Source of the DNA: Lysobacter sp. yr284
GTDB taxonomy: Bacteria > Pseudomonadota > Gammaproteobacteria > Xanthomonadales > Xanthomonadaceae
Reading direction: 5' to 3'
Length of the DNA: 64,000 bases
Assembly: GCF_900107375.1 (NCBI RefSeq)
Contig: NZ_FNPT01000017.1
Location: forward strand, 16,506 to 80,505
This document shows, piece after piece, positions 7,406 to 8,845 of this stretch (the first letter of the stretch is position 1; every line of letters begins with the position of its first letter). Position numbers and translations under genes: made by a program. Under the pieces are notes generated by a model, which was not told the DNA's origin, did no database searches, and saw only the letters and a list, made by a program, of their open reading frames with translations.

Positions 7406-8284
7406 TTACGCCGCGAACAGGCCGCGCATCTTCTTCAGCGCGTTGGCCTCGATCTGGCGGATGCGCTCGGCGCTGACGCCGTACTCGTCGGCCAGTTCCT
7501 GCAGCGTGACCTTGCTGTCGGCGTCCAGCCAGCGACGCTTGACGATGTCGCGCGAGCGCGCATCCAGGCCGGCCAGGCCCTCGCGCAGCAGCGCGAGTTG
7601 GTTGTCTTCCTCGTCCTCGCGCTCGTAGCTCTGCGAGGGGTCTTCGTCGGCGGTGCGCAGGTACGCGGCCGGCGACGGCGGCGCGTGGTCGTCGTCCTCG
7701 TCGCTGGGCGCGTCGAAGCCGATGTCGCGGCCGGACAGGCGCGACTCCATCTCCATCACTTCGCGCTCGGAGACGTTGAGGTCCAGGGCCACCTGACGCA
7801 CTTCCTCGGCGTTCATCCAGCCCAGGCGGGTCTTGGACTTGCGCAGGTTGAAGAACAGCTTGCGCTGGGCCTTGGTCGTGGCGACCTTGACGATGCGCCA
7901 GTTCTTGAGGATGAACTCGTGCATCTCGGCGCGGATCCAGTGCACCGCGAAGGAGACCAGGCGCACGCCCTGTTCGGGGTCGAAGCGCTTGACCGCCTTC
8001 ATCAGGCCGATGTTGCCTTCCTGGATGAGGTCGCCGATCTGCAGGCCATAGCCGTTGTAGCCGCGGGCCACGTGGACCACGAAGCGCAGATGGGAATGGA
8101 CGAGTTCGCGGGCCGCGTCGAGGTCTTCCTCGTCGCGGAAACGGCGGGCCAACGCCTGCTCGTCTTCGGCGGTCAGCACCGGGATCTGGTGCACCGCGCC
8201 GATGTACGCGTCCAGCGAACCGAGCGCGCTGGGCACAGGCAGGTTGTTGGCGACAAGAGCGGAGGATTGGGCGATAGAGGTCAT
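7406..8284 (-). CDS. rpoH: RNA polymerase heat-shock sigma factor sigma-32
   Basis: 292 residues, normal for RpoH. Region 2 is recognisable by DLIQEGNIGLMKAVKRFDPEQGVRLVSFAVHWIRAEMHEFIL, and the RpoH box appears as QRKLFFNLRK near residue 138, the hallmark that separates it from other sigma-70 members. Region 4 closes with VTLQELADEYGVSAERIRQIEANALKKMRGLF. It directs polymerase to chaperone and protease promoters. A linker rich in acidic residues (DEDDDHAPP) lies between regions 3 and 4. The 5' leader contains a CIRCE-like dyad 10 nt before the ATG and no good Shine-Dalgarno sequence. Confidence 0.98.
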   Translation of the reverse strand: MTSIAQSSALVANNLPVPSALGSLDAYIGAVHQIPVLTAEDEQALARRFRDEEDLDAARELVHSHLRFVVHVARGYNGYGLQIGDLIQEGNIGLMKAVKRFDPEQGVRLVSFAVHWIRAEMHEFILKNWRIVKVATTKAQRKLFFNLRKSKTRLGWMNAEEVRQVALDLNVSEREVMEMESRLSGRDIGFDAPSDEDDDHAPPSPAAYLRTADEDPSQSYEREDEEDNQLALLREGLAGLDARSRDIVKRRWLDADSKVTLQELADEYGVSAERIRQIEANALKKMRGLFAA

Positions 8285-8294
8285 GTCGGCGATC

Positions 8295-8321
8295 TTAGCA
8301 GTCGGCCTATCGGACTGCTAA
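8295..8321 (-). promoter_or_regulatory. CIRCE-like operator (HrcA site) in the rpoH leader
   Basis: TTAGCAGTC, exactly 9 intervening bases, GACTGCTAA. The canonical CIRCE element bound by HrcA is TTAGCACTC-N9-GAGTGCTAA. This site matches 8 of 9 positions in each arm and the single change is mirrored, so the dyad stays perfect. It sits 10 bases before the rpoH start codon, the usual place for CIRCE. HrcA binding is inferred. Confidence 0.75.
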
Positions 8322-8845
8322 AGGGTGGGGAAGTTCCGCAGTGTTGCGGGATTGGAACGGCCGGGAGGGCCGAAAAACGGCTGGCGTTCAGGCTCGCGGG
8401 AGTGTCGCGGACCGGGCGTGGCCGCAGCGTCGTCTAACGATGACGGCGCCGCAAAAACGGCCTTTGCGATCAGCGACTTGGCTCGGGCGGATGGCTGGGG
8501 CCGCGCTGCCCGAAGCGGTTCCGACCAGATTTCGCGAGCCTTTGTGAGACAGCCGCACGGCGTGGAAAGTTCCCGGGGACGCGCCGGGGCGGCGGAGGCG
8601 TCGAGGGGTTCGGCGCACCCGTACCACTAGGTTCGTCAGCAGCGGCCACTGCACCCGCAGGCACGCGCGAAACGGCTGAACAGGCGCGCAGTTGACACCT
8701 TTTGGCTGAAACAGCACGTAACAGCAAGCATTCCATCACGGTTTCGCAATGATTCCGGTCGCTTTCGCGCTTGCGACCGCTTTGCCGGATTAGGCGTACT
8801 GGCAATGCGCCGGCCCCCTGCGCCGGCCCGACCCGGGGAACCTAC
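8322..8845. other. 524-base non-coding gap between rpoH and the TonB receptor
   Basis: The divergent promoter region of rpoH and the receptor. Open frames here are short and Arg/Ser-rich without family signal. I could not identify convincing -35/-10 pairs. The last 10 bases carry GGGGAA, the receptor's ribosome site. Confidence 0.6.

Follow-up and report, generated by a model that had tools for sequence, protein, structure and literature searches.

Accounts of the heat-shock response in Proteobacteria usually keep two branches apart, one run by sigma-32 and the other by HrcA. In other bacteria, the activity of HrcA requires free GroEL, or HrcA itself senses heat. Promoters recognized by RpoE (sigma-E) follow the consensus GGAACTT, about 16 nt, and TCNNA; in E. 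coli, the consensus is of the GAACTT ... TC type. If an HrcA site in front of rpoH was described earlier for the beta- and gammaproteobacteria, this was most likely by Permina and Gelfand in 2003.

In Geobacter sulfurreducens, a CIRCE was predicted before rpoH, 51 nt from its start codon, according to the available text of PMC545781. That site is, like the one described here, a predicted HrcA site before rpoH. It differs in having the canonical sequence and in coming from one deltaproteobacterium, and the available text (PMC545781) mentions neither a sigma-E nor a -10 element as overlapping with it. The available part of PMC8103513 gives the P3 promoter of E. coli rpoH as RpoE-dependent. Our locus resembles P3 in the transcription of rpoH by RpoE, here predicted, and in a promoter of the GAACTT...TC type. 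At our locus, the predicted sigma-E -10 element lies within the probable HrcA operator, unlike at P3. A profile search of an E. coli control genome with PF01628 (HrcA family) gave no match, and CIRCE control is therefore not expected there. A link between HrcA and an rpoH promoter was not found in the accessible portions of PMC1978210, PMC11764788, PMC3224663, PMC3135505, and PMC10696704. In the accessible literature on Gammaproteobacteria, an HrcA site before rpoH was not found, and the Geobacter sulfurreducens prediction (PMC545781) is the single precedent found in print.

The locus studied here is a dyad in front of rpoH in the window (the whole 64,000-nt stretch of Lysobacter DNA that was analyzed). 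It resembles the CIRCE/HrcA operator in its arms, in its 9-nt spacer, in its location at a heat-shock gene, and in the presence of hrcA in the genome. It is unlike classical CIRCE in carrying one symmetrical change per arm, in having rpoH rather than a chaperone operon as its target, and in that its arms also form predicted promoter -10 elements.

A CIRCE-type dyad in front of rpoH

The full dyad at 8295-8321 reads TTAGCAGTCGGCCTATCGGACTGCTAA. Eight of the nine bases in each arm match canonical CIRCE; the variant base is at position 7 of each arm, so that the change is symmetrical. Ten nucleotides (8285-8294) separate the dyad from the ATG of rpoH, a gene identified by its match to NCBIfam TIGR02392 RpoH (413.9 bits, cut-off 323.1). 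Among the 80 loci listed, the best relative of the encoded protein is that of Lysobacter antibioticus (96%). The leader, in rpoH sense, ends in ...GACTGCTAAGATCGCCGAC-ATG, and a Shine-Dalgarno-like tetramer was not found in it on reading the sequence. The original prediction had described the dyad, its symmetrical one-base changes, the N9 spacer, the distance of 10 bases to the rpoH start, and the absence of a Shine-Dalgarno sequence, all of which we confirmed. Across positions 8285-8845, rpoH diverges from a plus-strand gene with an ATG at about 8846; this neighbor looks like a TonB-dependent receptor.

Table 1. Features of the rpoH locus in the window (strand "." marks a symmetrical element)
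Feature	Position	Strand	Basis
rpoH, RNA polymerase sigma-32, 292 aa	7406..8284, ATG 8284..8282	-	TIGR02392 RpoH profile
Gap of 7 nt from the -10 hexamer to the rpoH ATG, without Shine-Dalgarno	8285..8291	-	Leader reading
Predicted extended -10, TGC-TAAGAT (TGCTAAGAT)	8292..8300, hexamer 8297..8292	-	Six right-arm bases plus GAT
Predicted CIRCE-type HrcA operator, TTAGCAGTC-N9-GACTGCTAA	8295..8321	.	Pattern match and conservation
Predicted sigma-E (RpoE) -10, GTCCGA	8310..8315	-	Three bases closing the left arm (rpoH sense) plus first three of the spacer
Predicted sigma-E (RpoE) -35, GGAACTT	8331..8337	-	GAAC offset conserved among rpoH dyads

A search with the pattern TTAGCASTC-N9-GASTGCTAA, tolerating up to three mismatches, returned 8295-8321 as the sole match within the window, and 100 dinucleotide shuffles of the window gave zero matches at the same tolerance. 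The whole 6.25-Mb genome contained two matches at up to three mismatches: the rpoH dyad with none and a site upstream of groES with one. The reversed control pattern matched once in the same genome at this tolerance. The genome carries an hrcA gene (PF01628, 218.5 bits against a cut-off of 22.2). Sites near groES and hrcA had been proposed as a check; the one at groES exists, while in front of hrcA no match with up to three mismatches was found. The groES site, TTGGCACTC-N9-GACTGCTAA, has one canonical and one variant arm, so the other CIRCE site of the genome is not uniformly canonical at this base, a point on which the original prediction could have failed.

Conservation among related rpoH loci

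We compared 80 named rpoH loci, nearly all titled Lysobacter, Stenotrophomonas, Xanthomonas, Pseudoxanthomonas, or Luteimonas. The dyad was present at up to three mismatches in 76 of the 80, 35 of them without any mismatch, and its conservation in related leaders, also proposed as a check, is thus borne out. These dyads lie about 55 nt or less from the start of the RpoH match, and their spacers vary. The gene upstream of rpoH is not the same in the window, L005, and L025, which indicates that the dyad tracks rpoH. We therefore rejected the possibility that it is a site of the neighboring gene, since the neighbor changes while the dyad stays with rpoH.

Four loci (L013, L024, L054, and L078) lacked a dyad with up to three mismatches. 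The presence of hrcA was tested in 16 of the 80 named genomes, picked to include the deviating ones. The gene was not found in L013, L024, L054, and L017 and was found in the other 12, including L078. Eleven of these 12 genomes with hrcA had the dyad; in L078, the 7-nt arms are intact and the spacing is two bases short. L017 is a counter-example, having retained the dyad with three mismatches despite the absence of hrcA. The left arms have decayed and CTGCTAAGAT is intact in the hrcA-less L013, L024, L054, and L017, which are titled Stenotrophomonas, and in the hrcA-less genome G013. Together, these five represent a natural experiment in HrcA loss.

The left arm reads CCGGCAGTC in 17 of the 22 Xanthomonas-titled loci (L026, L035, L036, L038, L046, L048, L049, L051-L053, L055, L058, L059, L062, L065, L066, and L069). 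Two Xanthomonas-titled loci, L036 and L062, were tested for hrcA, and both were positive. Given that their left arms are degraded despite hrcA, HrcA binding may be weak there, and the control of rpoH by HrcA may be weakening in the Xanthomonas-titled loci with CCGGCAGTC.

Two further observations were made in this set. Four Luteimonas loci (L031, L032, L061, and L080) have the right arm CACTGCTAA, with an asymmetrical first base. The record of locus L075 (JAHREJ010000016.1, 22379-29260) carries the title Bacillus subtilis SK7B5, but rpoH and its leader belong there to the Stenotrophomonas type, and the assembly is probably mislabelled or contaminated.

Co-occurrence of the dyad with hrcA

Within the order, hrcA was detected in 59 of 121 genomes. 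We scanned 250 nt upstream of rpoH and scored 89 leaders; G019 was dropped since its rpoH was unplaceable, and 31 genomes were unread. The dyad was present at up to three mismatches in 55 of the 57 leaders from hrcA-bearing genomes vs 0 of the 32 from hrcA-less genomes (Fisher p 3.6e-22, a value that ignores shared ancestry). The best hrcA-less leader had five mismatches. Both hrcA-bearing exceptions, G016 and G034, have intact arms and a spacer of 8 nt. Furthermore, hrcA and the dyad are both missing from single members of families that otherwise retain them, namely in f1, the family of the genome studied here (G013), f3 (G062, a genome 87% complete), f4 (G026), and f11 (G011 and G021).

The operator itself varies across the order. 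The canonical form, TTAGCACTC-N9-GAGTGCTAA, stands in front of rpoH in several sister families, and one arm is changed in others. A second operator variant, TTAGCAGAC-N9-GAGTGCTAA, with an asymmetrical left arm, precedes rpoH in the f11 loci L168, L171, and L174.

The survey was also made across the class, in which 101 of 143 genomes contained hrcA. Leaders were read for 129 rpoH genes over 250 to about 420 nt upstream, those of G000 and G001 being carried over from the order survey, and 14 genomes were unread. The dyad was found in 86 of the 92 hrcA-bearing genomes vs 10 of the 37 hrcA-less ones (p 4.4e-14, with no correction for the tree), so that six hrcA-bearing genomes were without it. 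Several genomes with a dyad despite hrcA being scored absent are incomplete: G141 (62%), G234 (73%), G173 (81%), G239 (85%), and G168 (86%). The remaining exceptions, G270, G229, G263, G151, and G210, are rated 97-99%. As the HrcA reading is supported across the class, HrcA control of rpoH is probably widespread in Gammaproteobacteria. Conservation and co-occurrence with hrcA thus support, on sequence grounds, the earlier proposal that rpoH is placed under HrcA, and they extend the link beyond Lysobacter to the class. A further addition to that proposal is the overlap of the dyad with predicted promoter elements, one of the sigma-E type and one an extended -10.

Predicted promoter elements inside the dyad

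In rpoH sense, the dyad region contains a predicted promoter of the sigma-E type, GGAACTT (8337..8331)-N16-TCCGA (8314..8310). The 202 rpoH dyads used to describe its conservation comprise 135 dereplicated ones and 67 from the class, with one per genome. In 159 of the 202, GAAC begins 14-16 nt ahead of the dyad, and TC followed by NNA occupies the place of the sigma-E -10 in 161. GAAC was found at the sigma-E offset in none of 24 groES dyads, a set that was not dereplicated and that excludes the hrcA-bearing L143 (G052), whose groES locus is without a dyad (6 mismatches). In L168, L171, and L174, GAAC is displaced by two bases and the leaders are long.

The motif GAAC-N17-19-TCNNA occurred in 28 of the 32 hrcA-less leaders of the order (1.0 expected from mononucleotide shuffles) and in 48 of the 57 hrcA-bearing ones (1.7 expected). 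Because it is found in both groups, the sigma-E promoter looks like the invariable component, with the HrcA site superimposed where HrcA exists. The genome studied here encodes RpoE (TIGR02939, 340.4 bits, cut-off 236.15). In front of rpoE, GAACTT-N17-TCCCA was read by eye; a stricter pattern did not report this site.

With the three bases that follow it, the right arm makes up the predicted extended -10. A T is present at dyad+3 in 189 of the 202 rpoH dyads, and TGCTAANNT in 173. No such conservation is seen at the mirror-image position of the left flank, an argument against a symmetrical contact by HrcA. The T is not specific to rpoH, since it was also found in 15 of the 24 groES sites. The f1 members without hrcA (G013, L013, L024, L054, and L017) retain CTGCTAAGAT. 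Although the extended -10 element TGCTAAGAT is conserved, a standard sigma-70 scan here passed no -35/-10 pair, and a sigma-70 promoter with such a pair was rejected.

In 70 of the 71 unique f1 leaders, 6-8 nt lie between the hexamer and the first in-frame ATG past the dyad; this count took ATG alone as a start and included the dyad in the search. A Shine-Dalgarno-like tetramer was present in 9 of the 71 f1 leaders vs 32 of the 37 from the order's remaining families; it was also present in 20 of 27 class loci, two of these without a placed ATG. Given the short gap and the mostly absent Shine-Dalgarno sequence, the rpoH mRNA made from the extended -10 may be leaderless in this family. In the window, the start of such an mRNA would fall at about 8284-8286. 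A start at the sigma-E promoter would yield an rpoH leader of some 20-25 nt.

The symmetrical variant in family f1

Among the 71 unique rpoH dyads of f1, the left arm has G in 67 and the right arm has C in 63, with both in 61. Of the family's 18 groES dyads, 8 carry the left-arm G, and the symmetrical G/C pair occurs in one. Arms with half of the variant are present at groES in this genome and in its f1 relatives. We read the symmetrical variant of f1 as derived from canonical CIRCE. The G in the left arm creates GTCNNA, and a sigma-E -10 of this form may account for the change at base 7. Among the 28 sigma-E matches found in leaders without hrcA, 23 have G immediately ahead of TC. The change in the right arm often occurs alone in other families, and the sigma-E idea leaves the right-arm C unexplained.

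Discussion

The dyad, the promoter motifs, their conservation, and the co-occurrence with hrcA are read directly from the genomes. They point to the dyad before rpoH as very probably a docking site for HrcA, and we consider it highly likely that HrcA, with the dyad as its operator (CIRCE), represses rpoH transcription by covering the core promoter. The sigma-32 and HrcA systems of heat-shock control thus appear to be wired together.

The dyad could instead act in RNA, as a hairpin by the start codon that serves as a thermosensor or stability element. A 9-bp stem does form in the predicted rpoH mRNA leader, and a hairpin 10 nt before the ATG could block translation. The fold of the leader is, however, ordinary (z -0.73, with 45 of 200 shuffles as good), and Rfam gave no match up to E 1 in 8100-8800. 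The arms are conserved mainly as sequence, the pairing letters varying only at positions 1, 3, and 7 (and at 8 outside f1); of the 71 f1 leaders, 17 break stem pair 1 and 22 break pair 2. In addition, the presence of the dyad follows the hrcA gene, and a transcript from the predicted promoters would be without the left arm. With an unexceptional fold, no Rfam match, and pairs broken in part of f1, we rejected the hairpin as very improbable. We give slightly less credence still to a takeover of the f1 site by an unknown regulator, which would explain why the symmetrical variant is nearly fixed at rpoH in that family (61/71) and rare at groES (1/18). The canonical HrcA site lies at rpoH in several sister families, with mixed arms in between, and this decided us against another regulator; the half-variant arms at f1 groES also speak against it, as does the degradation of the dyad (6-8 mismatches) in the hrcA-less G013, L013, and L024.

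Control of sigma-32 in E. coli is largely post-transcriptional. It is similarly conceivable that the dyad is a weak site of low effect, the output of rpoH being set mainly by translation and protein stability. The degraded left arm in 17 of the 22 Xanthomonas-titled loci, two of which (L036 and L062) have hrcA, fits such a site. That the dyad is kept where hrcA persists and gone where it does not argues for selection, and we regard a low-effect site as unlikely, if less so than either the hairpin or the replacement regulator.

For the HrcA operator, we infer binding, repression of rpoH, and promoter usage, as well as the inducing signal, the last by analogy with other bacteria. HrcA would sit on the dyad and cover the sigma-E -10 in the left arm and spacer as well as the extended -10 in the right arm. 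The extended -10 TGCTAANNT would serve the housekeeping polymerase and GGAACTT-N16-TC would serve RpoE, and bound HrcA would block both promoters, repressing rpoH transcription. On heating, or once misfolded protein takes up GroE, HrcA would release the dyad, and groESL and rpoH would be derepressed together. The sigma-32 made after derepression would then drive the remaining heat-shock genes.

A broader proposal, which we offer tentatively and with somewhat more doubt than belief, is that a single 27-bp element combines the HrcA operator, the sigma-E -10, and the housekeeping extended -10, and that rpoH was ancestrally controlled in this way in those Gammaproteobacteria that carry hrcA. Envelope stress, acting through sigma-E, would then raise sigma-32 only after HrcA release. 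In f1, base 7 would have changed to G for a better sigma-E -10 (GTCNNA), and rpoH would have become leaderless.

Should HrcA gate the sigma-32 gene throughout the Gammaproteobacteria that carry hrcA, the two branches of heat-shock control would become a hierarchy, and transcription of rpoH would receive feedback from the state of HrcA. The textbook case of E. coli would then represent lineages without the HrcA layer. The existence of species with and without hrcA makes HrcA gating of rpoH directly testable.
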